In this document: positions 3,001-40,907 of the stretch, piece by piece
How positions within the stretch are numbered: position 1 is the first letter of the stretch
Layout: every line of letters begins with the position of its first letter
Assembly: GCA_914767715.1 (NCBI GenBank)
Contig: OU612067.1
Location: 22,914,162-22,978,161, forward strand
Length of the DNA: 64,000 nt
Direction of reading: 5' to 3'
From: Membranipora membranacea
Lineage: Eukaryota > Bryozoa > Gymnolaemata > Cheilostomatida > Membraniporidae
Program-made: the position numbers and the translations under genes
The notes under the pieces: generated by a model
Databases searched by the model: none
The model's input: only the letters and a program-made list of their open reading frames with translations
Told to the model about the DNA's origin: nothing

Positions 3001-3800
3001 AGAATTGACTAGAGACCCATTCAAGCGCATTGTTAATTGAAAACTAAGTTCTGATAGTGAGTCAAATCATCCCTATAATACTGCCCTTTATTACACATCC
3101 CTCCAATAGTGCTTGTGATAAACAGGGTCACCATTGAGCGTATAGGAACCTTTGCTTCTGCATTTGGGCGACTAATAAATGGGAGCCAGCTATGTACCAA
3201 TGTCTCAACAAAATTCTGCTGCTGTCTGTATGTTCATGGCAAGCAGATGAGCGCTCGTGGAAGGCATTGCATGTTCAATACGTTCACTGCAGAGAATGAT
3301 TTTGCTTGTGGTTTTGGCATCACAGCTAACTATCCTAATATCATTTACCAAACATTTACTTTGACGGTATGAACATGGCACAGGACAACATTTCATTTCC
3401 AAACATGAGGTCATCACCTAAATTCTTGTGAGATAGGAGGAGGTGGTGATTGAGCCTACCTAAACAGGAGGGGAAATTAGCACAAAGAACCTATGCTATT
3501 TTGCCACAATTAACTAATTATTGATAAGTTGAGTATTAGGCTACTCACATATATCTGCTGTTTTGAGCTTCTGAATTTCTCTGCAGCTTTACCAACAACT
3601 TCTTCTCTAGCGCAAAATACTGGACACTGGCACTGATAAAAATAGAACAAACAGTCTATAGAGTGTTGGAGCTACAAATATCTGCAACCGCAGATTTAGA
3701 TTTATCAGGAGGGACATGCACTAATTACTTCTACCTAAATCACCAAGACCCTAGTATAAGAGGGCTTTGAGTGGAAGGTGTATGGTAAATGATAAAAAGT
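1..3800. repeat. Diverged repeat blocks, three copies each
   Basis: This stretch is built from three blocks that each recur three times in the same orientation. Block alpha (a GTGCTTGTGATA core followed by a CACCATTGAGCGTATA core) is at about 195-240, 1329-1372 and 3108-3152. Block beta (TATCTGCTGTTTTGAGCTTC core) starts at about 257, 1678 and 3515 and runs for several hundred bases in the first two copies. Block gamma (GCATCACAGCTAAATATCC core) is at about 930-1170, 2770-2945 and 3240-3365. Spacing between copies varies, so this is degenerate tandem duplication rather than a clean array. I recognise no protein in the open frames here. Confidence 0.75.
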
Positions 3801-14235: not shown

Positions 14236-14435
14236 GTAAGAAGCTAAGTTTTGCATGTTATAGACTGGTCATACTTCACAGGATGGCATTTATCCAACTG
14301 TTTGGTTGCAAGTGTCTTTAACAAAGAGCAGTAGCAGTATGATTTGGTGATTACATATATGCGGTATGGAACTCTATCAAGTTGAAGGATATATTTGTTG
14401 AAATTTGCCTGCAATTTTAGAAGCTAAGTTTTACA

Positions 14436-16351
14436 ACTAGGTGGATCAATTTTATTCATGCATCAAATTATTCTCTGATTCTTCAGCTCCGTAATGATGT
14501 GCTTCTTTAGAAAATTGGTCCACTCTTAGTGCATTTTATATCTATCGCAGTAGAGGCCTTCCCGAAAACGCTCACATCAAGCCAGGCTAACGTTTCGTGA
14601 GGTCAGAGAGCTGTTTGAGTGATCAGCCTATTGTAAAATCAAAACAAACAGAGCTATCTTGTATTCAATACAGCAGAAAATCCATGGTGCTGATTTTCAT
14701 TTTCCACTATGAGCCTATGCACCCACATCTCAATTGCAACCTCATGGAAGGGCACTGGCATCCCCATCCCCAAATTTGAGATATGATGGTCTAAAAAGTC
14801 AGCTTATTTGTGTGATTTCTGCAAATGTAGGTCAACACAGAGCACCAAACTAAGGCTATATTGTGTAGTAAGGTATTCCATGAATGGCCCCCATTGAATA
14901 CAATACTCCACTGAGATCCACTGGCTAAGTAAACAAACTTGGAATTTTATATTACAACAAGCACAGCGGTGTGTGTGTGTGTTCGATTGAGAATAAATGA
15001 CACATACTATAAAATGAGGTAAGATGCAGGTCAGATAATAAAATAATCCAGCGATAGCTGAGTCATCGGCTGCACAAAGTTAGTGAAAATAAGGCGAAGG
15101 GAAAGGAGATCAAGAATTTTTAGACTTTAGCATTCCAATATGTTATAGCTTTAGACTTTAGATAAAGCTTTAGACATTAACTGTGTTACTGTTCTCATAT
15201 TCTTGAAACTGACCAGCTTATAGTATGCCTTATGTATAATTATTTGAACTTGACTAAAAACTTTCGGTGAGGACCTGCTGTTTGCCATCCATTGTATATT
15301 TATAATTGGAGATTTTTAATTGATAAAACTTTATCAGCAGACAAACATTCTAGATGTGATGATAAAATTCTAAATAATGTGCTGGGTAGATGGCGAGCCG
15401 AGGTAAATCCTAAAAATACTGTGCTGCGGCTAACTGTGACAAAGATTTTTGATTTTTTGTAAAAAATGGCAAGAACACAAAACATCAACCAAGACACAAA
15501 TTTTTGCTGGTTATGTAAGTCAAAATCTATTTGTCATCAATTATTGTAATGCCCATTGAAATATTATTGTCATTCCGCTTGAGAAACAAGCCTACCTCTG
15601 CATGCATATCCTCCACGGTCAGTTCTTGTGAAGAAACATATTCCTTCACCATCAGTTGCTTGCCCTATTCCCCTAGAATGGCCCCAGAAGCTTCATTTTC
15701 TGAATCAACAGAACTTAGATAACATCAGTTATCTGACGACATTATTGCCATCGAAATATTTTGCCCAAAACTAAGGATCGTAAATTTAAGAGCGTGTGTT
15801 GAATAATGTTAGACAAATTGATCGTGGCTAATAAACTAACTCTGGCTATGTGAATTGGGGCCTGTATCATTCTATGGTCATGGATGTTTATACGATGAGC
15901 ATATCACAGAGTAAGGATATATCCTTACTCTGTGAGCATATTTTGCAGTCATCGATGAGGTAGTTTATTATGAGCCCGCAATAATGTTTGTTTTGACAGC
16001 AATGTGATATTTTATGTGGGGAGAGCCTTGTCAAAGATTATAAAACATTGGCCATGTAGACATAACCACATCCACTAGGATACTGTGTGTAGTCAACAAA
16101 GATGTTGATGCGTGACCTATTTAGCTAAAGTTGTTGAGGAATTTCTATCAACACAGCGCACTAACAGCTCTGTGACGTCAAATATCACACCCTTTTCAGG
16201 GTTAATTTTATGCGAGTGTTTTTAGGAAGGCCTCTACTGCGATAGATATATAATGCACTTAGAGTGGACCAATTTTTTAAAGAAGCATATCATTACGGAG
16301 CTGAAGAATCAGAGAATAATGTGATGCATAAGTAATATTGAGCCACCTAGT
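14436..16351. mobile_element. 1.9-kb non-autonomous TIR element
   Basis: Present in this intron of copy 1 and absent at the matching place in copy 2 (about 42640-42650), so it is a real insertion. The terminal inverted repeats are about 140 bp (14436-14575 and 16211-16351), start ACTAGGTGG and match imperfectly. The inside has no recognisable coding region. It contains a short palindrome near 15905-15940 (CAGAGTAAGGATATATCC and its complement). No clear target duplication was found, so the superfamily is undecided. Confidence 0.8.
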
Positions 16352-16388
16352 GGTTTAACCCTTTATTATCATCCTGTTTACATTACAG

Positions 16389-18991: not shown

Positions 18992-20169
18992 GTAAAGCTG
19001 TGAAATAGTAAATTATCCCACAATGCATTTACATGAAATTTCCTGTAAAATCGAGTAGATGTGAGCATTAATGAGTTTGACTTCAATTGACTGATAACTG
19101 ATGGTTTCAGTTAGGGTGAAATGATTTCGGGTTTTCATTTACCTGGCAGAGTGTATTTTCTTCCCAATAAACTTCCAGGACCACAATACCACTGACATAA
19201 TCTTTCTTTTAAAGATTCTCAATCACCAGAGTGAGGGATCGTGTTATTTCTCAATCAGTCCAGTCTTGTAAATAAATTGTGTGATCATTTTGCTTATTGT
19301 CATATCCCTTGAAACCTTAAAACCCTTGTAACTGCCACTAAAATGAATCATTTAAAGTCATAAAACATTGATTACATTACATTAATTTACCCTAACAGTA
19401 TGTGGTGGTATCCTGACTAACAGTACTGGTACAGTCAGAAGTCCAGGCTACCCGAGCTTCTATCCTCATGGTGTAGACTGTCTATGGGAGATCAGAGTAC
19501 CAGCAGGCCTTCAGATTCGTCTCTCCTTTGACACGTTCAGTATAGAGCAGACAGAGGGCTGTAACTGGGATTATGTACAGGTCGCTGAGAACAGAACCAG
19601 TCTCAACAACACCAGGTAAGAATATCCCAATATACTATTGTCATTTAGTTTAACGTGTTAAGTAAACTGAGCTTACAAGAAGAATGGGAATCTAGTTTTC
19701 TGTTTATTAATTGTTAAATTTATAAAAGGGTTTTAAAAGTGGGGGGGGTGCTATTTGTCGAATTTTTGCTTCAAAACTCATCTGCAGAGAGTCACTTGAT
19801 GGGTTGTTCCTGCCCAGACACAGAAAAATCAATTCTTTATCAGTGTGTAGGGTGTAGGATATCGCTATCGAAGCCTCTTCTTCTTTTTACATCCATACTT
19901 AAGTAGTATGGGAAGAGTTCTTCATGTATGGTTCGTTGGATTTGCTTGTGTTTCCTGTAAATATAATTGAGGCTATACATCTATTTTATAGCATTCAGAT
20001 TAATTATGCTGTGTTTTATATTGTACTTTAAACCCAAATTTTAATGCGCCACACAATAGAAATATAAATCAATATAATGTGGTAGCAGTTGCAGAAACAC
20101 CATGCTCTTTTGGCATATCTACCTGTTAGGGGAAGGAGATATCTCACCCTCCTTGTTGCCAGCAATTGC

Positions 20170-20173
20170 TTAA
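20170..20173. repeat. TTAA target-site duplication, left
   Basis: TTAA directly precedes the left terminal repeat. The same TTAA follows the right end (31335-31338), and a single TTAA is at the empty site 46212-46215. Confidence 0.93.
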
Positions 20174-20558
20174 AGGAACAATACACTTCTGATCTCTGTT
20201 TGACAGCCAACGCAGCTCTGAAAAATGTATGCAGGTACTAAAACTCTGGTAATATAGTGTAAAAACCCCTGTTCTGCTCAAATATGCATTCTAAATTGAA
20301 GTTGTGCATCCCCAACATGAAATAAGACAACTAATAGAATGAAGTTTTTAGCTGAAATAGTCTGCTTTTCTCAATAGGTTGTCTGCCCCTACCTGATGAA
20401 TTGATACAAATGTATCATAATGCGCATATGCATGATGTAATATTTTCTAGCCACCCAAACATTTTGCTTTTAAGCCACATCCGGGAGGTTTTTCAACAGA
20501 AATGACTTGCAGCAATCAGAGGATTTTCTGAGTTTATCAAACATTCACTGTTGAAACT
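20174..20558 (+). repeat. Kolobok left terminal inverted repeat
   Basis: Starts AGGAACAATACACTTCTG. It pairs with 30950-31334, with only a couple of mismatches in the outer 325 bp, then more divergence inward. The plus-strand gene begins just inside it, so this repeat may supply the promoter. Confidence 0.92.
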
Positions 20559-20563
20559 AAAAG

Positions 20564-21636
20564 ATGAGTTCTAAACCAACGCCGTATGCTTTTGCTCCAA
20601 CCAAGAATGGCCAGAAGCTTCCTTGGGAATTGGGGATACCTGAAGATGGGAGAGTTCTGCCTCCTGTCCCAACTGGACACAGAAATACTAGTCTAGTGGG
20701 AGTACAAGTACAGGATCATCATCATCTGCCACTGGGAGTGCTGACCCCTCACCTTACCGACCAGGAAGGATGTGGGAGGCCTTTAGAGAGGAACAGCATG
20801 AGCAACAACATGTTGATCAGGTAATGTTTTGTAAAATTGCTTCAAGCTTTCATATATTTATATAACATTGATCGCATCTGCATCCGTATTCACACTTACA
20901 TTACATGGGTCAGATCCTATTAATCTAAAACAGCTAAGCGAATACAATCCTTATTCAGTAAGATCAAGACCACGATAGATTATGTTGCTAAATACCTATT
21001 TCAGAAGTGGTTAGAAGGGTTGCCTCAATTCTGGCAGCATGTGAAATGGTAGATACTTTTTTACTAGGGCATGATTCCAGGTTGGGGTAGTATATTGACT
21101 TCCCTTTGATTGTTATTTAGGTCGAACAAAGACCATCGCCTCCACCACCACAGGCAGATGCTGTAGTCAGGAGGAGAGATGTCTGTACCTGCCAGAGATG
21201 TCCAGCAGATATGCCAACTAGAGCTGAAAAGAAATGTTGTATGAAAGAGGACATAGTAAAGACATATTTTGAGGGGTATCAGGAAGGTGTCTGCCTATCT
21301 ACAGCTGCCGAGGTGCAACATCTACTTCATCCCATCTCTGTCAAGACCTCATGGCTAGCACAGCGTCAATACCTTGGATATCAGGGAGAGGACTTAAACT
21401 TTGAGCTGATGACGAACGAAAATTACAGATACCACGCCTATCGGAACTATACCAAGTATATTCACGGTATATTGGGGCAGTTCAGGAGAAAAGTTGTGCC
21501 AGCCTGCATAGTGACAGCTATTCGGAATACATGGCCCTCTGAAACTTACAGAGGATTCATTGATGTCAATGAGGACGGCCAGCCTTTACCACCTGATTAT
21601 GACGAATTAGAAGCTCTTGAAGGAGAACAAATCTAG
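20564..21636 (+). CDS. P2X7-receptor C-terminal (ballast) domain protein carried by the transposon
   Basis: The reading frame is exon 20770-20820 joined to 21121-21636 (GT at 20821, AG at 21119-21120), ending TAG 21634-21636, giving about 188 residues from ATG 20770. The second exon holds the zinc-binding P2RX7 C-terminal domain: CTCQRCPADMPTRAEKKCC, then GVCLST, then YRYHAYRNYTKYIHG, GQFRRKVVPACIV and IRNTWP. Family knowledge: this domain forms the cytoplasmic ballast of vertebrate P2X7 and also occurs as free-standing proteins in invertebrates. A longer frame opens at ATG 20564 (MSSKPTPYAFAPTKNG) but is out of phase with the downstream exon; a TAG at 20689-20691 blocks the correct frame upstream. 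This implies either a short start at 20770 or a frameshift. Its role in the element is unknown; accessory DNA- or protein-binding is only a guess. Confidence 0.85.
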
Positions 21637-21825
21637 ACTCCACCACCAACCCAACGGCCCTTTTCAGGGCCACCATCTCTTACCAAAGAGTTGTTCCAAC
21701 ATTTTTAATTGATAAAATGATCATACAGCAGCACTGTTGAAGTCATTCCATAAACAATGACATGCAATGCTAAGTATCAAATGCCCACATAGTAGGGATT
21801 TGATAACTTTCTGATTTTTATCTAG

Positions 21826-21930
21826 GTTGAACAAAGACTAGCACAACCTCCACAGGAAGATGTTGGATGATTTTACACGCTAGATGTGTCCTGTCATTAT
21901 GCTAATAAGAGCTGAACGTGGTTCAAGGTC
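21826..21930 (+). pseudogene. Degenerate second copy of the P2X7-domain exon start
   Basis: After TTTTATCTAG the sequence GTTGAACAAAGAC resembles the start of the exon at 21121, followed by ACCTCCACAGGAAGATG and a ruined CxC region with stops (TGA at about 21866). It looks like an internal tandem duplication of the passenger exon that has decayed. Confidence 0.55.
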
Positions 21931-22656
21931 AACAGCTGATACCAAACTGTGAAACATTTGAAGTACTTGATGCTGAGGTTAGTCAGAGTAAGTATAGTCA
22001 GCATCAAAAGACAATTTCAACAAATTCTTGCAATGGTGTACAGAATGTTGCCACTGATCATAAACTTTTACTGGCCACTGCAATATGAATGGACCATTGA
22101 CTCTAGAACCAAGTTTAATGATAGAGACCCTCTGAGCGGCCATGTGCAAGTGGGTCAGTGCTGATTTAGAACTAAAATTATCTGGTGCTTCACAACAGAC
22201 AACTATTGAAGCCAATAATGTGATGAACTTTTTTTTATTATCCTGAATAATCTTTTTTTTTTCAGGAAATACAGGATTCAGCGGACATACAAGACAACGA
22301 ATAACACACTATACATAAAGAGACACCGCTGAAAAATATGAACCCGAAATACAGCTCAACTCTTACAAAAAGTTAAAATACTATTCTGTAAAAAATGCTT
22401 ATAAATGTACACATAAAATTAGCTGCACATAATATTATCTTGATTTTTCCTGAGTTGCATGCAAAGTATCAAGTCAAAGAGTTATGTTTTTTACAACCAT
22501 GAGAGCAAGAATTCTGAATAAAGTTACACATATGTACAAGGTTTCCATGTTCACCACTAACACACTACAGTGAGACACGGTCGACTTATGAACACGACTT
22601 ATGATTAAAACGTTATTCTGTAAAAATTATGAGTTGCTAGCGGAGAACCAAAGGCA

Positions 22657-24199
22657 CAATCTATGTTTTCTATAAACATAAGAGCAATAATGCTGAAATA
22701 ATATTGCTCATAAACTACTTATTTTGCACGTAACAAGCACGGAGTCAAATGGAAGCTTCATCTTCACAAATTCTAAAGGAATTCTTCCCAATCAGGGTTA
22801 GGATATACAGGGCTGTAACAATTATTATAGATACGGTTCTAACTGCTAACAACGGACTTTCTCACTGTTAACAGCTGCCTCCGTACAATTATACCCCTTA
22901 CACCCAATATGACGAGGTATCTATGTATCCTCGATAGCCGGGATTTAGGGAAATTTATGTATAATAAAATTGTGATAGTTTTGTTTTGATGCTGTGCCAT
23001 GCATGTGGGTGTATGTTGTGATATAATATGGTTCAGGTTCTTACGTGTGTTAACTATCCTGTCATTCATGTACGCTATTAACTCCTTCATTTGATGACAA
23101 ATCACAAAACATCTGGAGAGAATCTATGATCAGTAAATTTGATGGCTCAACTAATTCCGTGTGAGACAACTGAACTACAGACGAAACCCCATCAAACCTC
23201 TCAAAGTTTAAGTGAATAGAATGAGTAGTCAGGTTTCCTAGTTTTCAGATCATATTTTTCCATCCAACTTTTTTGTGATTTGTCATCAAATATAGGAGAT
23301 AAAGAATGTGGGTGTATATCTATGAGTTTTTACATCTATAGGTCCAAGTTTCAAATTTCCATAATTGCGGAGCTTACGTTATTATAATTACTATGTAACC
23401 AGCTGCTTACTGTCATTGGTTTCTCCTCATGAAATACTTTGAGCGTCTTGTAGCTCTTCATTATCATCCACTATTAGATTTCCCCAATAAACAAGGACTG
23501 GAGTTGCAGTAAACTATATAAGTATTTCATGAGGAAATAACAACAACAGAAGACACTCAATTTCCAGCCTGTTAGTATAGTAATTTCAATATTGTAAGCT
23601 CTGGCGTTATGTCATCTTGAATGAGGGATTCCAAAACTAATTCTTCTAACTCATAAATTCGACACACTGTTTCAGTTAATTTGAAATTTGGACCCAAATA
23701 TGAAAAAATACATGGATAGTCCGAATAAGATAAACTCCCATAGTCAGGCCTCCCTCCCTCCCTCCCACATCCATAATTGAGTATATGAATGACATGATAA
23801 TTAGCACGTTAAACAACCAGAATAATATTGCATTACAACAATCACTTACAAACATGGCTAAGCATCAATGCAATAATATTACAATTTTATTTTACATGAA
23901 GTTTCCCTAAATCCCGGCTATCGAGGATACATAGATACCTCGTCATATTGGGTGTAAGGGGTATAATTGTACGGAGGCAGCTGTTAACAGTGAGAAAGTC
24001 CGTTGTTAGCAGTTAGAACCGTATCTATAATAATTGTTACAGCCCTGTATATCCTAACCCTGATTGGGACGAATTCCTTTAGAATTTGTGAAGATGAAGC
24101 TTCCATTTGACTCCGTGCTTGTTACGTGCAAAATAAGTAGTATATGAGCAATATTATTTCAGCATTATTGCTCTTATGTTTATAGAAAACATAGATTGA
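22657..24199. repeat. Nested inverted repeat inside the Kolobok element
   Basis: Two arms of about 315 bp (22657-22976 and 23881-24199) are near-perfect inverses, with ends CAATCTATG and CATAGATTG, around a non-coding centre of about 0.9 kb. A more diverged copy of the right arm follows at about 24220-24460, and a diverged relative precedes the left arm near 22490-22560. It may be a nested non-autonomous element or an internal fold-back. The centre also has a smaller inverted pair (CCTCATGAAATACTT near 23425 and AAGTATTTCATGAGG near 23521). Confidence 0.75.
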
Positions 24200-24504
24200 T
24201 AGATAGATTGACCATTGAGGCAGCATATAAACCTCGTCATATTTTGTGCAGGGTGTATAATAGTACAAAAGCAGCTTTTAGCAATGAGAAAGTATGTTGT
24301 TAGCAGTAAGAATTGTCATCTATAATTATTCTTAGAGCACTACAAATCATAGCACTGAATTGTAACGACTTCTTTTAGAATTTGTCATGATAAATCTAAC
24401 CTTCAATTCTATGTCCGTCATGGGCAAAACTTGTAGTGATATGTACAAGGTTGTCTACAGGTGAACATGTTACATGGTGAAATTGTGCTGACCAGATTAC
24501 TGCC

Positions 24505-27500
24505 TCAAAATCTCTTATACTTCAGGTAGTCTGCTTTCAGCGCCTCAAACTCCGGCTTAGGGGTGTCCTTGCTAAGTCGTGCTCCTCTATCCTGAAAAAA
24601 AAATTGAATGCTTTGTATGTTGGCATAATACTGTAAGGTTTTGTATTTATTTGGTATGACGGCAGCAATGAAGATACAAAGTTTTGTACCATGTCCACTT
24701 TGGGTTTCCAAATGAAGACAATGCCATGTTGATCAACATTGACGACCGCAGTATACACACACATAATTTCTAATGCCCTATTATCAAGTATTGAGTATTA
24801 CATCAAAGCTATAAAAGCAATGGTGCTCAACTTACTGGTTGCAATGGAGCCTTTGGATATATACCCTCCGCATCAGTAAGGATGTCGGCCAATATATCCT
24901 TCCTGAAGTTGTAGGTCTTGGGGACGTATACTGGACGCATCCGGAAACTCTTAGCACTTTTAGTGTATACCATACGGAGCTTTGGGGTTCCATCTTCCTC
25001 TAAAGTATAGTAAACAAAGATGTTGCTCTGAGTATTATTATTACATTACAACAAACGGGTACAACACTGATCGACAACACACAAAAAAGACTGTTGACAA
25101 GAGATTTTTAGTGCTGACATTGAATTTTTGATTTTCCCAATAATTCAGTGTATACCAAGGGTTCGGTTCTGGACTTTTCAAAAAAATTGTGCGTTGAGAA
25201 AAATGCAAAAAATTTTCTGATGGGTGCCACTTACCATATATCACTGGCCTTGAGCAGTTCTCATTGTGGTCCATGAGAGCGAGCTGAACACGAGCGTTGT
25301 AGCTGGGAGGGTCGTAATCCACCCGCTTGCTGACATAGGCAAGGAACAGAGAATGAAGAACCTCCAACTTTCCTGTATGAACTCCGTGAGTACAGAGCCT
25401 GAGTTGGTCAAGGAACGGCTTAGACTGGATGTGCTGAACTAACACCTGATGTGCCGCATCTCCAGCTTTGAGAAATTTCACTTCTCTCTCCTCATTACTG
25501 CAAAACAGATATTGGATCAGATGATTAGTATTACACAGATAAGACAATAAGAAAATAATTTAAAGTTTACCATTACAATAGAGATACACCCAAAGACACA
25601 TGAACTTCTTGACCATTAGATCCTTCCTATAAACTGCAAACTCATTTGAATTTCTCAACGCTAAATGGTTTTAATGGTTATTTGTCAACCAGGGACTTTC
25701 TTTATGGAATTATGTATCCAAGCAAATGCAAGACAGTACAAACCAGCCTTTTCATCGCTAGCTGTTTTTTGCAACTGTTCCAAGCAAAGCAGCAGCCATG
25801 TATTTATTAGTGAGAAAACAAATTAGTGTGAATTGTACTCACTTGGATAGTTCAGGATGAGCACATTTGGTGAACAGCTCATGTCCTGGAAAAGCAGCGT
25901 GTCTGTTGGTAACATGAAAGTTCATGCTGAGGACCATCTCCCTCAGTTTCTTTTCGTCCCCCTCACAACTAGCAGCACTCCACCAAACATGGTTTGTGAG
26001 GTGTTGGATCCAGCCAGTCAGAGCTCTAGATGCCTGATTGAAAAAGATAAAACAAACTTTTATCTTGTATGCCAGCGTTGGGATGCAGCTGTTAATAGTT
26101 GTGTGTTTATTCTGTATCGCTGCCACTGACACGCTGACATTACAGTTACACAATCTGTATGACGCCTTGACCGCACCATCTTCATGCATAATATTCTTAT
26201 AGGTATCGAATAGGTATTAGAATTTGAAATGGTTTTGAATTTATTTCTGTGTTTTTTTATGAATCATGTTTTCAATATCAATGTAGTACGGCGCATGATG
26301 TGTAGCGGGAATATAATGTACTCACAGCAGTTTTAGCTTTTTTGGCAAGGTTTTTGCCAAGATTCTTGCACAAATGCCAAACATCTAGGCCGTGTTTGAC
26401 TGCTGTCTCCAATCTCATGTAGGCCCGGATCGACAGATTCCCATCTGTGGTCACTGATCTGAGGTTGAACAGCTTCTTGGCAGCTTGGTACAAGGTAACA
26501 AAAGCCTCCTTCTCACTGGCAACAGCTGATGACCTAGTGGCCGTCTCTACAGTGAGGTTATGTGTCACCTTTCCACTAGCCTTCAAAACAAAATTAAAAA
26601 TCAATATAACAACAATAGAGACCCTTGACTTTCTCACAAACATGTACATAATGGTTCTACTATTATTAATTGACATTGTGTAAAATATAAACTGTATTGT
26701 GACAGTGATATTGAATGTGAGTTAGACAGCAGAAGGGTAGAAATCTAACTCGGGGCTTCAAAATTCACACCATTTATGTGTTTGACTGTATGGATTTGTA
26801 AAGATTGTTTACCAAGCTCAGGTCTTACTGCATTTTGGTAATTATTGTCGCTTTATTTAGGCTGTGGTGTTATCGCTGCCTGTTATGTTCATATCACAGA
26901 ATATGTTGAATACTGAACACTGCTAAACCAAGACTTTCTGAGTAAGATAAATAATCCATGTCGGATATCTACACTTACAGAGTCCATGAGAGTGTAGGTG
27001 CAGTATCTGGCTGAGTGACCTGGACTATCATATCGTCCGTCTCCAGATAAGTCAACAGGCTCACCTGGTAAAATGTATAAATAACGTTGGAAACATTTAG
27101 GTAAAATAGTGAAAATATAACAGGTAGAATCAATGTTAGAAGGACACAGGGACCCCACACAACTATTTAAAACTTCTGTGAACAACTTGCTCTCACAGAA
27201 AATTTTAAATATTAATTTAGTTATGTATGAGATATAGAGTAGGAAATATTACCTCTGGCTATAACCTCTTCTCGAGCTTTCTCTAGGGACAGTTTGACAT
27301 GTCTCTGTATCTGGGGTATAATATGCTGCCTCTGGTACTTGTAAAAGGTCGTCGCCGACACAAACTGCAGATCAAGCAGTTGGAAAAACTTCTGAATACC
27401 TCCGAACATCTGCCCACTGTGAAGTAAAAAAATAACTGTTCAGTATGGGTGTAAATATCGAAAAGTACCAATGACCACAAAATTCATCCTGTTTATGTCT

Positions 27501-30500
27501 TCAAGGACATGTAAACATGAAAGAAAGACCAAATTTTCTGTTAATATTGTAATTGAAGTGTTAGTTGAGTATAATCAGGCAAGTTTGGAGGTGACTGAAT
27601 AAAACCTAGGACTAATCTTTGGCTAGCTGAGGGGAGGGGGCAAGTCTATATGGAATGTAAAGAATGTCAGTAAATATTAGCTAGCCTTCAATTTAGCTTC
27701 TCTAAATTATTGGAAAATAACAAACTTTTTTTCCTGCAAATACTATACTCATCAGAGGTATGTCATTGATGGCCCCACGTACATGAGAATTCAACATTCA
27801 ATAATTATTGCATTATAATGTCAAATTCTTGGTTCAACTTTCCACCAGTTTGATGCCAGCACTAGGTCTACAACTTATACTTTGTTGCTAGTTGCATCTA
27901 GTCAAGGTTCTCTGCAAAGCAATATTACATAGCTAGCAATTGTACTGCAACACAATTATATCTAACATTGTGATAAAGATAAGGTGGTAATGCGATACAT
28001 ACGTTAGAAACATGGTTGAGACCAACTCTACATTTCCCTTAGCTTTCATCCCAAGTTTCGGCTGACTTCTCCATGAATGTTTCCTCTTACAAACTGTGCA
28101 CTGGGAACGGAGTATTAGGAGAGAACCTTTGGTCTCAGATACAGAAACTGGTCCAAGTTTCTGACCGCAGCGACAAGGAATCTAAAATAGAGAACGATGA
28201 TTATTCTTGATTGGCAAGGACGTACATGTCACCTCACAAAACAATATTTAGTAAGAGTGCTACATCCAAGGGACTATCACATTAGTGAGGGGAGATGTCA
28301 ACAAATGTCTCTTTGCTTGCTTACCTTTGAATACAAGCAGGGTTAGTCTAAAGTTTTAGTCACTAGTATCCAAGGTATTTTCGTCTGAACAATATGAAAT
28401 TCTAAACTGATGGATTGATTAAAACTCTATTCACAGACTTCTTTATAACCACACATATCATGGTTGTCCGATACAAATTTGGTTATAAGATACACAATTT
28501 AGGTAGGTTCATATTCATATATTTCACCTGCTTGTAAAGGTCTAGAATTTCACTTTGGTATACAATGTGTTTTCTCGACTCTCTGCTCTGGATGACCTCT
28601 TCCTCTACATCACTATCTGAACTGATAGCAAACCCGCTGTACTTGCTCATGTTCAGCGTGTGATTCATGAAGTATACGTCTTCAGGGTCCAGCTCTAAAA
28701 AATTGAAAGGGCATAATATTCTAGACACGGCAATGGAATTAAGGCGAGATGAGGTATGGGTAACTGGTATGAATTTACTGCTAATATTATAACATATACC
28801 ACAGCAGTAAAACAGAGTTCTACAATATTTACAAATACATGCACCCTTCATGTAGGCTTTCACAACGTTGTGCTACGTATCCAAGTTCCAAAATATTAGT
28901 TCATCTTATTGCAAGAGTCATACATACCTTCTGCATCTACTGCCAAATCTTGTGCTTCATGGTCTGGGTGAGTGAGGGTAACATCATCCAGTAAGTCATT
29001 CTGAGAAGATTCTATAAGTTTTGAGAAAAAAATAAATGTTATAGAGCTAAGATTGGTGATTCACAGTATATGGTATTAGGTAGCAAAATCATTTTAAAAT
29101 ACTGAGGGTATTCGGAGAGCTATTTAAAAATATGAGTCACTATGTTAGTCTTAGCTATACGATAACCTAGATTCTATCGCGGTTTCTCTACGAGAGCTCA
29201 ATGTACAGTCAAGGTCAAGGGTCAAATGAAGCAGAAAGTTTCAATTATCTTAACTTACCTTCATTGTCAAACACCTCAACCTTGACAGCTGAACTGGTAT
29301 CTAACATGCCACCAGCAGTGACATCTTCCATGACTGGAGGTCTCATCGGAGATGGTCTGGAGCCTGCTGAGGAGATGGGGGATAAAGACGGTGATGGCCG
29401 GACAGGTGAGGCACTTGAATAGAGTGGTAGGATCTTTTGATGTACAGGCGAAACAAAGGACGTACTTGTCAGATCAGATGAAGCCATAGTCTCAGATTTT
29501 ACAGGTGTCGACTGTTTGACCTTGGTTGGCTTAAGTGAAGATGTAGGTACTCCCGCTGACCTTGGTACAACACGCAGCCTTGGAATTCTTGACGGTTTTG
29601 ACGATGTTACAGTCTGAGGGATAAGATTGACCATCGGCTTGGTTGGCTGAAGTGTAACTGTTGCTCCTAAGTTGACTGTCCTTGGTATCACTTGGAGCTG
29701 TGGTGTCATCGATGGTGTTGAAGGAGTCACAGTATGAGGGATGAGTTTTCCCTGAGGTGTCAGAAGATATCTGCTACCCGGTTTTACTGTAACACCCGGC
29801 CTTACTGTTAGTATTCGAGCTTGTGATTGAGCAGAGGTTGGCGTAGACAACAGCGAGTGAGTTGGTACGGGTGTTGATGGCTGCATAAGATTGAGAGGGT
29901 TGAGTGGTGACGTTGGTGGTGATGTTACTATCTCTAAATGCTGCGATACCTGTTTGTAGGGTATCCTGGTCACACGTGCAGAAGCTGGCACAGCCTAAAA
30001 TATACATTATATATCAGCTACTGATAAAAATCCTTGGCCGGAAAACGTAAGCAGAAATAACGCACACAATAGGTGGTATAAATATGCTGATAGTGAGTCA
30101 AGCGCGCAATTCTTTCATGATCAGGCAAACTAACTTCTCCAACCAGACAAATTCTATCTCTGAAAATATACGCTGTTAACCAATGTCACCGATTGCTTGT
30201 TCTTGAATTTGAATTACTCTTGAATGAGTCAACATTGTAAAATAGGGGCCTGACTCCTAGGACTAGGACCTAAGCTAAGTTAGAAGTCACTTGACAAGCC
30301 CTTATTATACAATCTTCGATTTTAAAATTAAATAATATAGAACAGTACAACAGACTCCAGAACAATATTCTAAATATATATATATTATTTTACTTCTCAA
30401 TATATTATATGGGCATATCACTCACACTGACACTGGGCAAGCAAGAAATTTGCCCCTCCCAAAACAAAGGCTGGGTCTTTTCTAGACTAAATTCAACTGA

Positions 30501-30927
30501 CAAAGGTTGTCTACAACTAACTAGAGCTGAATTTTCTTCTTCCTTGGAAAGTATTTTTTCCTATTTATTCATAATAAACATATATTATTATATATATACT
30601 ATAAATTATACTATACTTACTATAGATAGATAGGCAAAATAATACAACACTTACCATTCTCTTTCTAGATCTTGGAAGCTTGAGAGTTGGTACACTGCCC
30701 TTGACCAACCTCCTAGACCCATCATCTTTAACAGTATACTGATCTTCAGTGAAGTGTTCATGACATATTCTGGAATACTTGTACTGTTTCTCCATAAATG
30801 TTCCATAGTGAATATCACTTCTCTTTGCCAATTTGAAAATAATTTCCCTCTGCTTAGCTGAAATAGAGAACAAAGACACTCATTTTGTATCTTGAGTGTT
30901 CTTGCAATTAAATATGATGCAAATCAT
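24505..30927 (-). CDS. Kolobok transposase with N-terminal THAP zinc finger, 12 exons
   Basis: Exons in transcription order: 30927-30655, 29994-29259, 29011-28928, 28694-28528, 28181-28003, 27416-27253, 27064-26979, 26580-26326, 26033-25843, 25497-25235, 24999-24836 and 24591-24505 (TGA). Phases agree at every junction. The THAP domain (C-x4-C in CIIFNC, C-x2-H in ICHEHF, then VKGSVPTL) is followed by a long Pro/Ser/Thr-rich linker, a CRCG...CTVC zinc motif with SQPKLGMKAKGN, and TTFYKYQRQ. Next come the catalytic-looking blocks GDGRYDSPGHSA, TTDGN with DVWHLCKNL, NHVWW, and HTGKLEVLHS with LMDHNEN. These blocks fit the DDE-type Kolobok family; exact catalytic residues are inferred. An in-frame TGA (30882-30880) lies inside the THAP domain between the first two cysteines and VSLFS, so this copy is probably inactive unless translation starts later. 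Confidence 0.9.
30880..30882 (-). other. In-frame TGA within the transposase THAP domain
   Basis: The frame reads NTQDTK, TGA, VSLFSISAKQR with both sides in the same phase and matching the THAP fold. No intron is short enough to remove it. It is probably a single-base nonsense change. Confidence 0.8.
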
Positions 30928-30949
30928 AGTTGTGGTTACTGGAGCAGAT

Positions 30950-31334
30950 TGTTTCAGCAGTGAATGTTTGATAAAACTCAAAATATCCTCTGTCTGAAGC
31001 AAGCACGTGTGTTGAAAAACCTCCCGGAAGTGGCTTAAAAGCAAAATGTTTGGGTGGCTAGAAAATATTACATCATGCATATGCGCATTATGATACATTT
31101 GTATCAATTCATCAGGTAGGGGCAGACAACCTATTGAGAAAAGCAGACTATTTCAGCTAAAAACTTCATTCTATTAGTTGTCTTATTTCATGTTGGGGAT
31201 GCACAACTTCAATTTTGAATGCATATTTGAGCAGAACAGGGGTTTTTACACTATATTACCAGAGTTTTAGTACCTGCATACATTTTTCAGAGCTGCGTTG
31301 GCTGTCAAACAGAGATCAGAAGTGTATTGTTCCT
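30950..31334 (-). repeat. Kolobok right terminal inverted repeat
   Basis: Inverse of the left repeat. The transposase ATG (30927-30925) lies just inside it, mirroring the plus-strand gene at the other end. Confidence 0.92.
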
Positions 31335-31338
31335 TTAA
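31335..31338. repeat. TTAA target-site duplication, right
   Basis: Right-hand TTAA flanking the Kolobok element, followed by GTATAATATG exactly as at the empty site in copy 2. Confidence 0.93.
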
Positions 31339-32170
31339 GTATAATATGTTTATAGTAGTTGTTTTTGAGCAATGAGGTGACAACTTATAATTATATGACC
31401 ATTCTTTTTACTACTTATAGAAAAAATACATGCCTGATCATACGTAATCATCTTTGCTTCAAATATTTGAATTAGGATGAGATGAATATTTCCATGTCAT
31501 TTCAAGCAGTCTTCTAGTGAGAAACTCAAATTGTTTGTACTATGTCTCAATCATTGTTTTGTTGCTTACAGGAATGGAGGTAATGAGTTGTCTCCCCTGA
31601 TTGGAAAGTTCTGTGGAACAAAAGTGGATTCACCAATCTTCTCTCACAGGATCAAGTTCAAATCAGACGTCTCCAGCGCTGCTCCGGGCTTCAGAGTCTT
31701 GTCACCAAACTACCCTAATGCCTACAACAGAGAAGCAGAGTGTTACTGGACAATCACAGTGGCTCAAGGAAGCTCTGTCATGCTTGTCTTCCTAGACCTT
31801 GACATTGAGAGACACGACTCATGTGCTTACGACTATGTAGAGGTAAGTGTGTAAGCCAGTTGTTACTGGATTTGCATAATATTTGAGATTTTAAAGACCG
31901 ATAGGACGACTTCAAAGTTGCCATGTTTTTCTTTTGATGGCATCAATCTTTATTTTGATTGCAAACATACCACAGAAGAGTAATATGAAGAGAGCAATCA
32001 GTTGAGCTCATGTGGGGTGACTTAATGTAAGCGAGCAACATCTCTTTACTAACGGAGTTAGAAGTATATATAAGCTAATGAGGTTGAGTTGATGTAAGCT
32101 GGCTATGTAAGCTGGCTATTTCAAACAGTTGCGAAAAAGTACTTTCTTTGACACAAATTACCATTTATAG

Positions 32171-32324
32171 GTCGTCGAAAGAATACATACTGGCAGATCT
32201 CTGGGTAAAATATGCGGAAACACACCACCCCAACCAGTGAGCACTTCTGGTAATCAGATAACCGTCAAATTCAGAGCTGATACTTCAATAGGTGGTCGAG
32301 GTTTCAGTGCTGCTTTCTTTGCAG
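32171..32324 (+). pseudogene. CUB second-half exon, copy-1 tail
   Basis: One open exon, phase 0 in and phase 1 out, with GKICGNTPPQPVST and GGRGFSAAF. It pairs with the fused exon ending at 31842 to make one complete CUB domain. Confidence 0.8.
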
Positions 32325-32509
32325 GTATGTTATGAGTCCTACAAAATATTACTGTCATCAAATGATGAACTTTTGGCAATTGAAGCTCCCATGATTGGAA
32401 TGGCTCTTCTGCTGAAATAAATGTCAGTTTTTACAAATGTTTGTTTTAGAGAAAGTCTTCATTATATTGTCAATGACATTGTTGTGCTATTTTTAACACA
32501 TAATGCCAG

Positions 32510-32695
32510 CATCAAGTGTTGAATGCCAGTTCAGGTGTTATCGAGAGCCCTAACTTCCCTGACCCCTACCCACATAATCGTAACTGTTCATGGGTTATCA
32601 ATGCTGGGCTCGGTAATATAATTTCACTGGCTTTCAGTCACTTTGATATTGAGGATGATATAGTTGGCAACCAATGTCGCAACGATCAGTTGGAG
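32510..32695 (+). pseudogene. CUB first-half exon, copy-1 tail (frameshifted)
   Basis: Contains SSGVIESPNFPDPYPHNRNC and FSHFDIED. The acceptor at 32508-32509 leads into a different frame, and the exon is one base too long for the 1-0 phase pattern. No second-half exon could be found before 33068. Confidence 0.7.
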
Positions 32696-33067
32696 GTTTG
32701 TAATGGTTATAATAGAAAAACCCATATGTCTGTCCGCTCTGCTTATGTAATACTTACCACTAACCCCTTTCTACCGGATTATTGCTTCGAGTCATGCTGT
32801 CCCATTTGGCAGTTTTTTGTTGTTGGTGGATCATTCTTATTGGTAAGGCGAGGGTAGTTCTATTGCAAGATATTTGAAACAAACTGGGACAAGAGATAGT
32901 CATACTTCTGAATTCAGGCGGAGAATCAATCATTGAATGGCAATATGAGCAACTCAAGTGTCTAAAACTTACATCCTATTAACCTTCACCTTACCTTGAA
33001 ATCAAACAATATTCTGTACTATCTGTTACTTACATTCTGCTCATAAATGTTACTAACTTGCCTGCAG

Positions 33068-34564: not shown

Positions 34565-34656
34565 CTGCCTAATCCTAACTCATAGTGGTGCCTGCTACAA
34601 ATCTAATACAGCCTGGAGCTGCATAGTTACAAGTTACATCCTTAGTCTTATAAAGA

Positions 34657-37600
34657 TCAGCTCTGATCACTGCTCAGGTCTGTTAGTGAGGCTGATGGAG
34701 CTATAGAGTTTATCTGTGTCTGAAGATGCTGCTTTTCTAATAAAAGTCTCTCTTTAGTAATCTTATTCTGTTCCAGTTTGTTAGTCAGTGACCTCATCAA
34801 TGGTGTCACTAAAGTATCTAGTATATGGCAGACGCTGGCTGAGTAAACTGAAATATAATAATGACAGATACCTGTTACTCTTAATTCTTATGGTCTTGCC
34901 TGACAGGCCCACAAAATGCTTGGAATTGTGATATGCGAGGCTACACACACCCACTTTCCATACCTTGTGCAAACATTGCTAAGTGACTGAGCAATGAGTA
35001 AGGACCAATGACCGATCAAATGTGCTGCATTGAACCAACTGGCCAACGACAGAAGCGTAGGTTAAAATGCTAATTCACAACACCAATATGATGGTCTCTG
35101 AAAATACGCATCGTTAGCGCACTCAACGGCGTTGCTCGGCATTGAACTGAGGAAGACAATTCCACGCATTTAGTTGGCCTGTGGCCTAGGAGCAGCTTCT
35201 AGTGTATGATAGTCTATCTACTGAATAATCACAAGGTTATAACACCTCAGCAACAACGAGTTTTAGATGAAAATGGAAAAATAATGTGACACCGAGGTTT
35301 TGGGGTATTGTGGAGAGTCGGAGGTATGGTCTGCCAGGTGGAGAATGCAGCGGGAATATCACTTGGGAGCTTTTTTTATCGTTCCAGCCTCCAGGCACCT
35401 TAGGTGTGTATTCTTCCATATAAACACAATTTTGAGTATGATATTTGAACTGTTCGCAGTACCATGCAACGAAAATCAAACCAACTACTTTCTTTTTGAT
35501 AAAAATAATAGTCATGGGTATATCAGATATCACACTCACCTGAAGAGTTATAAACCTGTGTTACTAGATTACTATCTTTATCAGCTGGTATTGTGGAGCG
35601 GTAGGCTATACTCTCTTCTGTTAGTAAAACTTTAGGTAAGGAAATAAGGCTATGTAGATTATGTGCTTCATAAGTCAGTTTCTTGTCCACGTAGAGTGGT
35701 ACTTCTTTTCTGTCAAACCTGAAAATAGAGAAGCTAAGTCCGGCATGTGTGTTTATGACTCATCAAACCAGTTCAATTCAATATTTCATTAGTGTTGGCA
35801 AAGTAACTTAGCTGTACGTTAAGTGCCGTTTTTTAATCAGAGATCGGCAACCCTAAATGTCTCACAATTCCTCAGAACCTCACAGCAAGAAAATGTTACG
35901 AAACTTACTCATGAGGGTTACTCGTTTTCTGTACAGACTGAAAACATGTCACTTGGATCTGTGATTCCTAAAACAGAACCATCTCTTATTACAGGTAGGT
36001 AAGTAATGGATATCTGAGCATGTCATGTAAGAGTCGCACTCCCAGCTGAAAGTGAGTAATTGAGGTATGAGCTCATCTTATGCTGGGTCAGAAAAAAAAC
36101 CCTCACTAAACCGACAAATAACGTAACACGAAAAGTAGTCTACCTGTGTGGTTTTATCGATATTAAATACTGAAAAGATAACTCCAACAAAACAAGGATC
36201 CATCATCTGATAGTCAGCCTGGGTTCTCACATCTACAACAAAAAAGGCGGGTTCATATTTGACATCAACAGTAGTAAGTAAGAGAGGCTAGTAAAACACA
36301 CCACACTAGTCATGTTGTACAAATGTAGCCCAATGCTTTCGAACGAAGTATCACCAGTAACGTGTTGCAGAGAAGTATTAGTTATTCGAGTACAGATTTG
36401 CAAGAGAGCTCAGCTTTGACCAAGATAAAGTTTGTACTATGTTTTGTTAAATGCCCATGAGCAGGCTTATCATACAAGTGGACCTAATAAATAAGAGGAT
36501 ATCATAAATTGGAGTTGTGTCATAATTGAACCTTTTAGCCAAAAAGCAGACAACTTCTGTTTGTAGTTTACTTATTGAAAGGGAAGTAATGCTCCTGAAA
36601 TTCATCCAGGTTGCAATTTATGTCATTTTATCATCGATCACATCTCAGATGATAACCCAGTGCCACTGACATCAAACTAGGCTAATAAAAAGCACATCAA
36701 AGTATTGCAAAGAAAAAAAGAATTTTTCGATGGAAATCATGCGGCCCTTTTATGTGTACCACACTAGCTGCAGACAGCTAGTCTAAGGTTAACATAATAC
36801 CAACGTCACGTCAATAATCGCCATTCATGTGAGTATATATATATATATATTTCATATATAAGTATATACATACATATAATTGAATATAATATATAAATAC
36901 ATATATATATAAGTATATATATAAATATAAATGTATATAATATATATATAGTGTAGACATCAGATTAATAATTACCGACATGAGAAGGCCAGACGGTGAT
37001 GTGTGGATGAGAGTGATACCATCCTATTACCCTCATTGGTCTCTTCAACTTCTGACCTAGACTCTAAATTAGAAACAATAGAACGTTATCTAAACATTCA
37101 TTATTACTATGGGTTCTACCAAACTAGAACAAGAGTTGAGTAATATGTAAATATATATAAGGAAGCCATATATGAAATGTTTATAGCAAATATAGATACT
37201 GAAATTTTTTCTAGAACTTAATGCGCATATGGTAAGATCTATCAGCTGTGACATCAAATGTTCCATGGATTCATCAAGATGCCCTCATGGGCTGGGGATA
37301 GAGCGGGTGGACAATTACAAATCTTAGAGCTTGTGTAATCTACATACATAATGTCATGCCAACCATAGAATAAGTTTGATCCAACTTGCCTGCATTCCAG
37401 TTGCTCCCCTACCACTGTTCACGCCGCAGGCCTTTTTGCCTGCGGCTTGACCCGGGGAGGGGAGCAACTCCAAATGCAGGCAAATGGACCAAACGTGGCC
37501 TTGTCACGCTTGGCTACTGACAGGGCTTGACAAGGCTAGATCAAACTTTTCCATGTCAGCCATAATGTTGTAACATTAGTTTTTCTGCACACCAAGGTAT

Positions 37601-38641
37601 GCAGTATTGATGCTCAACATACATCAGCATACATAGCAGCATCGCTGAGTTGTTCAGGTGATATTTCACATCTATCTGGTCTTTTATCTGATCTCTGTAG
37701 TATCACCAAGGCTGACACATGAGCCACAGAATCATTATCTAACTGTAAAATAAATATCATATATCTCACTATGGTCTTACTGTTGCTTCTATATTGGTCG
37801 GGGTCCAGGTTCCTAGCTCAACATGGGAAACTGAATGCCACTTATAAGTTTCTGATAATTTATTTATTGAGGTTTTCTTAAAGTTTCTAGTAATTAAAGC
37901 AAATTAAAAATAACTTGTTGACCTCAATGAATGAATGCTGACACACAGGGCTGACCAATTCATAAACTATATGTGATACTTTTTCTATGCTCAGCGCTGA
38001 GCCATCATCGCAGAGTAAGAGGGAGTCTATGTATGATGTCAAAATTTAGTGAAAGTCATGAATTCTCCCCTAACATCCCTTTATACATCTCATGTCTACT
38101 ACTGTATTTGTAATCTCATCATCTTAAAGGTGGAGAATTTTGATCGAAGCTAAGTTGCGAGTAAGTTCTCTTCATTTGGTTTTTTTTCAGGCAGTTTGAG
38201 ATATTAGGTAGCCAATGTGTTGGCTCTGATAACTGATTTGCTGGGTGGAGTGAAAGAGCTAATGTCAGGTCATATCACACATATCATGTGATATATTATT
38301 GCATGTACATCTCTGATCGACAGAGAGTGAACTAATTCACTTAGCATGAGTACCATCGGTGTGACGACCCAAGTTCATTTTCATTAATTAAGAGTGGGTA
38401 CAGGTTAGGTACTCGTACTAAATTGACTCTAATGATCAGAGATACACACGATGTCAGTGTGAGGTGATGTGGTACCTATGACATTGTCTCTCTCCCTATT
38501 CAATCGGAGCTAACGCATTGGCTAGATATTGGGTATAGTAGCAAAATAGATAACATACATCACCAATGAGGAGTCCCATTACCTCCTCTCTTTCAGTAGA
38601 ACATAGACATCGGACGCTAGCACACATCCACTAGCAGACAT
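34657..38641 (-). CDS. BRCC3: BRCC3 (BRCC36), K63-specific JAMM deubiquitinase, copy 2
   Basis: BRCC36 is the zinc metalloprotease subunit of the BRISC and BRCA1-A complexes and cleaves Lys63-linked ubiquitin chains. Exons in transcription order: 38641-38564 (tentative), 38026-37980 (tentative), 37742-37623, 37063-36976, 36232-36144, 35967-35909, 35718-35540 and 34847-34657. All intron phases are mutually compatible. Recognised blocks are EEVMGLLIG, LQRSDKRPDRCEISPEQL, GWYHSHPHITVWPSHVD with the complete JAMM pattern H-x-H-x7-S-x2-D, YQMMD, TCFQSVQ, and a C-terminal coiled coil (NKLEQNKITKERLLLEKQ) ending at TGA 34659-34657. Length is about 280 codons against about 316 in human. The first exon is odd: the frame holding STEREEVMG is not the one holding the DVYV block just upstream, so the start is either the internal ATG at 38627-38625 or the exon carries an old deletion. 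It lies head to head with the CUB array. Confidence 0.87.
36834..36955. repeat. (TA)n-rich microsatellite, BRCC3 intron, copy 2
   Basis: Copy-2 counterpart of the tract at 8884-8980, with additional TATATAAATA units. It lies in the BRCC3 intron between the exon at 37063-36976 and the exon at 36232-36144. Confidence 0.85.
37356..37562. mobile_element. Fold-back (MITE-like) element, copy 2
   Basis: Counterpart of the fold-back element at 9367-9572. The central stem has diverged: the right arm reads GCGGCTTGACCCGGG where copy 1 is perfectly complementary. Confidence 0.6.
38209..38524. mobile_element. MITE with TAGCCAATGTGTTGGC termini, copy 2
   Basis: Counterpart of the MITE at 10147-10462, with the same inverted ends and flanks. 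Confidence 0.6.
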
Positions 38642-40259
38642 AATTACGCACTGCCAACTACTACCCTGCAACAAACAAAGATAACTCCCATGTATTATAT
38701 AGCCGATCAGTTTACTGAACAAATAATGTACCAGTTAAAAGACCAGGGGAACGATGTCTGGGAACCTCTCTTCAGACATGTTCCAAGACACCTATTAGAC
38801 TTGTATAACGAAAGGCCTTTTGTACTTGAACCAAGGACAGTAGAGACCATAACTCTATGGTAGAGACTAGCTCCTTGCACTAACTTACTGAGTTGCCAGG
38901 GTAGGCCTATTATTATCCTCAATGAAATTTGAATTGACAAATTCATTCTTATTTAATTATATCATGACTTCAATATTATTTCATTACATTTTATTACAAA
39001 ATAAAGTACACCTATGCTGTAGTAATTGGATAGGCCCTGGGGGCCGATGTCAGGGAGACATGCCCCAATGCACCTATGAGAGTTGTGTAACAAAAGGCCT
39101 TTTGTTTGGTGAACAAAGGAGTACAATGGCAGGCAAAGTGTGCTTGTCTGAATGCATGTTGTGGATTCATGTGATTGCATGCTGGGGCGCGTGTATGCTA
39201 GGCTCAGCTCTCTACTTTTGCTACACTCATTTGTGGGGATACACAATCCACCCGCTGCTATGATATGTAGGAACCACTGGTAAAGGGTATTTCACAACTG
39301 TACTTTATTTTGTAGGGTCACCTCAGGGCCTTATTATACATGTTTAGTAAAAAATTATCAGTTCAGATCAAAATCATTCTACTGTTTTAAATTACTGCTG
39401 TACTTACTAGAAAATGTGTTGTCTCTGATTGAAGGCAACACATCGGCTTAATCAATGAGTAAGAGGGACTTCTTGGCTACATAATATTGTATTCATCTGA
39501 CTTTCCAGTTTCCACTTGCCAGTATGCTCTTTGAGACGATGATCTCTAACTATTTACTAGGGAGTTCTCTTGAGAGCATATGAACAGAAGATTTAGAGAT
39601 CAACCTGACAGGAAATAGTCATATTAATAGGCTGCACCCATGATACAAGATCATTCATAGAGTAATAAAATTTACCTGTAGTGTTTAAAACTATGGACTA
39701 TCTACAAAATCAAAACTAAACTAAGGAAGACACTTGTGACTTTATTATTATTTATTTACAAGGCTAAGAGCTACAATATATCAGGAAAAGATAGCTTTGC
39801 TTTCATATATTGATTGTCAGCTTGTAACCTTCTTAGCATAAATAGCTTGATGTGAGTCTGAGGCCCATCAGAAGGTTACCTTGGCCATAGCTAGAATAAA
39901 TGCAATCTCTCTGCAGTCTCTGTCTGTCTGTTACACTCTGTCTGTCTGTCATTGTTGTGTTAATTATGAATTTGTTAGGTTATTCAAGGAGTAACAGGTT
40001 TCTTCTGTGACTCCTTTGGTTAGTTGGGTACATACTAATTTAGGAATGTTGGAAACAGGGAGAATGGAAATGAAACGACCTGTCTGAAGAAGGATCAGAT
40101 GGACTCAAACCAAGGAGTTTGACAACCATTGCATGGTACTTTCTCCTATATCTTCCTAGTGTTTGTTGGCTGTCTACCATAGCCAAGTGCTTGTCCTATA
40201 TTGCCCGAGAGTTTATTGACTCACAATCTTAGTAAGGTGCTTTTTGTTTTTATTTGTAG
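38642..40259. promoter_or_regulatory. Divergent intergenic region between BRCC3 and the CUB array
   Basis: BRCC3 runs left and the CUB array right from this 1.6-kb stretch, so it should hold both promoters and possibly a short first exon of the CUB gene. No signal-peptide exon could be supported. Repeated pieces with core AACAAAAGGCCTTTTGT occur near 39089 and, with AACGAAAGGCC, near 38808; related pieces are at 11085 in copy 1. Confidence 0.4.
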
Positions 40260-40907
40260 ACTGCTGCGGTGAGTTGTCAGGTGAGACAGGAAATTTCAGA
40301 TTCCCACCTGTTCAGCATGATAGCTATCCGCATGGAGTTAGCTGTGCCTGGAGAATTGTCACCAGCCTGAATAAGGTAAACAAATACAGAGTTGTGTTCC
40401 CTGTGTTCATTTCTACCATACCTGTATCAAAATTGAAAATGATTTGCTTTTTGCAGTATTTTTGTCGCATAAGTTTATCTGTTACAGGGGAGACAACATA
40501 TAAAACATATAACTTGATAAAACATAGTTGGACATGATTTCCTGGAGATTACAAGCTAGAATTGCATTGTGGGATAAGTGCTGCCATTACTTTTGGCATA
40601 TAGACTAATTGATGTATAAACGTTGTGTTTTTGTGCTAACTTGTGACATACATTAATTGTTGATGCCTAGATGTCCTCCGCTTATACAAGTAAAATTTTT
40701 TTCATGGAGGATTTTTTTACTTTTTTTCTCAACCTATTAGAAAATCACGTCACTTTGCAGATAAAAAGATATTTGAACTTATGGATTTTTGTTTTCAGGG
40801 AGTTGATAACATCACCTCAACACACAACCAACTGTATTTATGGTTTAAGACTGACTCATCAGTGAGCGCACAAGGGTTCGCTGTTACATGGACCTCACAG
40901 ACTCCAG
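40260..40907 (+). CDS. CUB domain 1 (truncated)
   Basis: Exons 40260-40375 and 40799-40907. Starts [10 protein letters not shown] and has [12 protein letters not shown] and [17 protein letters not shown]. The central part with the YDY block is absent and no exon for it is visible in the intron, so the domain is shortened by about 40 residues. Confidence 0.7.

Follow-up and report, generated by a model that had tools for sequence, protein, structure and literature searches.

A transposon in an intron of a bryozoan gene carries a gene, probably its own, for the P2X7-type ballast domain. We analyzed a window of 64,000 nucleotides from Membranipora membranacea (assembly GCA_914767715.1, contig OU612067.1, positions 22,914,162 to 22,978,161) and conclude, with a probability of roughly 0.93, that positions 20174-31334 are a cut-and-paste Kolobok DNA transposon of the Kol0 type that occupies a TTAA site within an intron of a gene for CUB domains, and that the ballast-domain gene, KolX, belongs to the element itself. 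The boundaries, the target duplication, an empty site, the two genes, and the ballast domain are all present in the window.

According to Kojima and Bao 2022 (PMC9587614), the original Kolobok families form the Kol0 group, whose members code for two proteins, a transposase and KolX, and P2X7 derives from the fusion of a P2X4-like gene with KolX. The idea that the ballast domain came from a transposon is thus already in print, and it is those authors who propose that the domain passed from transposon to receptor. The element described here is a well-preserved, slightly damaged member of the lineage already reported as the source of the domain. It gives independent, clean support for the published claim that a transposon protein makes up the ballast domain of P2X7, a receptor in inflammation, with sharp ends, target duplication, and empty site all caught within one stretch of 64 kb. 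Its position in an intron, on the strand of the host gene, is the arrangement that exon capture would call for, though the splice phases do not fit here.

Ends, target site, and empty site

20170-20173: left TTAA copy of the target site (from the sequence and the single TTAA at the paralogous empty site)
20174-20498, plus strand: left terminal inverted repeat, 325 nt, with weaker similarity running to 20557
31010-31334, minus strand: right terminal inverted repeat (by alignment to the left repeat)
31335-31338: right TTAA copy of the target site (from the sequence and the empty-site comparison)
19616-31571, plus strand: host intron holding the element, phase 2, between two CUB-domain exons and on the same strand as KolX
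46212-46215: paralogous empty site with a lone TTAA, in copy 2 of the duplicated host region

The element is 11,161 nt long and is bounded by inverted repeats. Both ends read AGGAACAATACACTTCTGAT inwards, and the terminal repeats are 99.4% identical over 325 nt; weaker similarity extends to 384 nt (96.4% over 385 alignment columns). The sequence-only reading, made before this analysis, had placed the TTAA-bounded element at exactly these coordinates and had given it long terminal repeats; the repeats are there, and what needs correcting is their orientation, which is inverted. No family of direct repeats was found in 19000-33000 (seed 14, length 30). The termini, AG...CT, follow the Kolobok rule of 5'-RR and YY-3', and the 4-bp TTAA duplication, with a single TTAA at the empty site, is that of Kolobok elements. 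The near identity of the terminal repeats suggests a young insertion; gene conversion between the repeats would be an alternative.

The empty site comes from a duplication of host DNA within the window. Positions 6610-31699 correspond to 34568-46586 in blocks that are 81-99% identical. This region, which contains CUB-domain exons, is duplicated in tandem, and the left ends of its copies are separated by about 28 kb. The left flank of the element (19770-20173) is 98.5% identical to 45812-46215 and the right flank (31335-31699) is 92.9% identical to 46212-46586. The two alignments share four bases, the TTAA at 46212-46215, and the joined flanks align to the empty site without interruption where they meet; a three-base gap about 20 bases further right is the closest one. 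Because the flanks join cleanly at a single TTAA, we conclude that the 11,161 bases, both genes included, behave as one mobile unit. The element either inserted into one copy after the duplication or was cleanly excised from the other, and the conclusion is the same either way.

An internal pair of inverted repeats lies between the two genes of the element (22657-23080 and 23774-24198; 390 of 425 columns identical, with the outer 300 nt at 99%). A further diverged partial copy is at 24224-24385. The pair shows no visible target duplication and is either a nested element or an inverted duplication.

The KolX gene

20564-20820, plus strand: KolX exon 1 (MSSKPTPYAFAPTK...), followed by a serine/threonine-rich linker (by tblastn of the relatives P0003, P0005, P0008, and P0010, and three-frame translation)
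21121-21636, plus strand: KolX exon 2, the P2X7 cytoplasmic ballast domain with seven cysteines (by Pfam P2RX7_C, a profile match to P2X7, and the predicted fold; acceptor ATTTAG)

The plus-strand gene encodes a ballast domain. The open reading frame (ORF) at 21121-21636 matches the Pfam family PF20478, P2RX7_C, with an E value of 1.3e-7 and 32.2 bits (cut-off 23.5), which bears out the earlier claim of a P2X7 ballast gene on the strand opposite the transposase. Exon 1 ends at the donor GTAATG in phase 0 and is 50-73% identical to the N termini of P0003, P0005, P0008, and P0010 (tblastn). By three-frame translation it has one frame break in this copy, at about 20692-20710. In a 28-row alignment (the window sequence plus 27 relatives), a Y-x-F-x-P motif near the N terminus is present in 12 of the 27 relatives. 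KolX is a small, probably zinc-binding protein, and its fold is predicted to be that of the P2X7 ballast. The start of exon 2, together with its acceptor, recurs in part and in degenerate form at 21812-21916 (66% over 122 columns, with in-frame stops).

The transposase and its place in Kolobok

24505-30927, minus strand: transposase gene, 12-exon model with GT-AG introns and consistent phases
30927-30655, 29994-29259, 29011-28928, 28694-28528, 28181-28003, 27416-27253, minus strand: modeled exons 1-6
27064-26979, 26580-26326, 26033-25843, 25497-25235, 24999-24836, 24591-24505, minus strand: modeled exons 7-12
30655-30927, minus strand: THAP-domain exon, with an in-frame TGA at codon 16, 30880-30882 (Pfam THAP)
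26979-27064, minus strand: exon with the first catalytic Asp, LSGDGRYDSPG (by alignment; catalytic role by analogy)
26326-26580, minus strand: exon with the second catalytic Asp, TTDG, and the DxxH signature, DVWH (by alignment)
25843-26033, minus strand: exon with H2CH-type zinc-finger residues (by alignment and by eye)
25235-25497, minus strand: exon with the catalytic Glu, GKLEVLHS (by alignment)

The minus-strand gene encodes a THAP transposase, as had been read from the sequence. The ORF at 30565-30879 matches Pfam THAP (E 6.4e-6, 27.3 bits, cut-off 23.9), with the match limited to profile positions 47-86 of 87; the beginning of the domain precedes the in-frame TGA. We identified the first THAP cysteine pair and the H2CH residues by eye. 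The model has 883 codons, including the final stop and the one in-frame TGA. Exon 1 is supported by the THAP profile and exons 5-11 by tblastn matches of transposase relatives, some of which slightly overrun the modeled edges; exons 2-4 and 12 are placed by splice sites and open frame alone. Exon 10 has three phase-compatible donors, and the one with the best consensus was chosen.

The catalytic motifs are conserved. In the model, LSGDG begins at 540, TTDG at 607, DVWH at 629, and GKLEV at 754. In an alignment of ten transposases, all rows agree at both Asp residues and at the D and H of DxxH, and the catalytic Glu is present in all eight rows that have a letter at that position. The core downstream of THAP matches the Pfam Mutator-like transposase (E 2.3e-13), and it matches at least nine database proteins at an E value of 1e-5 or better with 28-40% local identity (best 7995 candidates scored). 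Named hosts among the matches listed are sea urchins for three proteins and a bryozoan for one. These four relatives are 30-40% identical to the transposase locally and 27-34% in the alignment. At that distance, and with no confirmed relative in viral_contigs scanned with the KolX alignment, the earlier suggestion that the element could spread the domain between genomes finds no backing, and nothing here supports a viral carrier.

The element fits the description of Kol0 in every feature tested, and the earlier assignment to Kolobok agrees with the TTAA duplication, the AG...CT ends, and the DDE/DxxH motifs. With Kol0, as represented by Kolobok-1_XT (PMC9587614), it shares the TTAA target, the 5'-RR...YY-3' ends, the DDE transposase with DxxH, and, as its second gene, KolX, whose product has the fold of the P2X7 cytoplasmic ballast; we saw no difference in kind. 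THAP and H2CH are also described for the Xenopus Kolobok transposases (PMC6004289). KolobokP has a transposase of the same superfamily, but PMC9587614 describes it as having a His-Me nuclease and long terminal direct repeats of about 450 or 660 bp, and no direct repeats were found here in the interval searched. Neither that nuclease nor the DEDDh exonuclease, lambda-type nuclease, or RecQ helicase (KolobokP/D/E/H) was found in the ten ORFs scanned with Pfam, which do not cover every short exon. The TTAA duplication is shared with piggyBac, whereas the AG...CT ends and a transposase with THAP and DxxH set the element apart from it. In contrast to the ballast of vertebrate P2X7, KolX is not fused to a channel, and its N-terminal part is a separate serine/threonine-rich stretch. 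Pfam found no P2X channel domain in the KolX ORFs, and the flanking host exons are CUB.

Alternative origins and possible function

We considered whether the ballast gene might have reached this position by some other route. It is very unlikely that a Kolobok element captured a host ballast-domain gene once, as cargo, in this one genome. Ballast domains outside P2X7 were found across many animals in an earlier paper (PMC7016195), so a host gene could have been available; a word search of the main text of that paper does not return "transpos". However, Kol0 elements are reported to encode KolX as their second protein (PMC9587614), and what the relatives share exceeds the ballast domain, taking in exon 1 and the Y-x-F-x-P motif. 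The general idea of the sequence-only reading, a mobile source of the ballast domain, stands, with the change that KolX, by the account in PMC9587614, is the regular second gene of Kol0 and not cargo. Less likely still are two nested or neighboring insertions, in which a THAP transposon lies beside a ballast gene that belongs to the host or to a different element. The internal inverted repeats between the two genes would fit such an arrangement, but KolX is outside the pair, between it and the left end; the pair has no visible target duplication, and at the empty site the whole stretch from one TTAA to the other is missing as a single piece.

Least likely, and barely credible, is that the ballast domain is a host exon of the CUB gene lying by chance between transposon ends. 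In its favor, KolX and the CUB gene share a strand and the acceptor of KolX exon 2 is good. All six host ORFs scanned, on both sides of the element, are CUB. Against it, the CUB exons spliced across the phase-2 intron give a single open CUB reading without KolX, whereas a splice from the upstream CUB exon into KolX exon 2 puts the reading out of frame and soon meets a stop. The paralogous intron in the second host copy has no KolX, and tblastn of 28 relatives matched the window only within the element. A host origin of the plus-strand gene, which the sequence-only reading had named as a result that would refute it, is excluded by the empty site.

Several points weigh against the Kol0 interpretation. 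The assignment is by features of one copy rather than by a transposase tree, and the published KolX enters the comparison by its description. A single-sequence phmmer search with KolX gave no PDB match at E values up to 1, and no Foldseek match of the predicted fold reached 0.001 (best 4.8e-3); the link to P2X7 rests on Pfam, the profile search, and structural alignment of the predicted fold. The seven cysteines vary among relatives: P0022 lacks two and P0021 has Ala at two. In addition, the TGA in the THAP exon and the frame break in KolX exon 1 make the activity of this copy doubtful. Because of these two lesions, the copy would seem to be no longer autonomous and to need help from others; either lesion may be a sequencing or assembly error.

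By analogy with what is known of the Kolobok family, the THAP/DDE transposase would excise the element after binding to its terminal inverted repeats and insert it at a new TTAA, which would be duplicated in the process. KolX might be an accessory factor for transposition, because it shares with relatives a layout of N-terminal Y-x-F-x-P motif (in 12 of 27) and C-terminal ballast domain. The abstract, Background, Results, and Discussion section 16 of PMC9587614 state no role for KolX. With low confidence, we favor binding of nucleic acid or protein over nucleotide sensing, because all 28 rows keep the arginines aligned with rat R546 and R578, as well as R108 and R123, while the positions that correspond to H547, R574, and K583 in the guanosine-nucleotide site (named as in PMC7016195) are Y, V, and S in KolX here. 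A more specific proposal, which we consider rather unlikely, is that KolX is a working transposition factor whose zinc-clamped basic surface would hold nucleic acid or the transposase, and that the guanosine-nucleotide pocket of P2X7 was built on that older surface. The KolX gene model should aid tests of what KolX contributes to the transposon.

Other repeats were seen elsewhere in the window. An insertion of about 1.9 kb in the first host copy (14428-16359), with 153-nt inverted ends at 89%, is absent from the second copy near 42638-42643 and is probably another DNA transposon. Positions 41076-41459 hold a 12-nt repeat array of about 30 units with two open frames (DQYA and STLT repeats). A 253-nt unit occurs three times in direct orientation at 356-3871, close to the left edge of the window, with 68-96% similarity to the reference copy.
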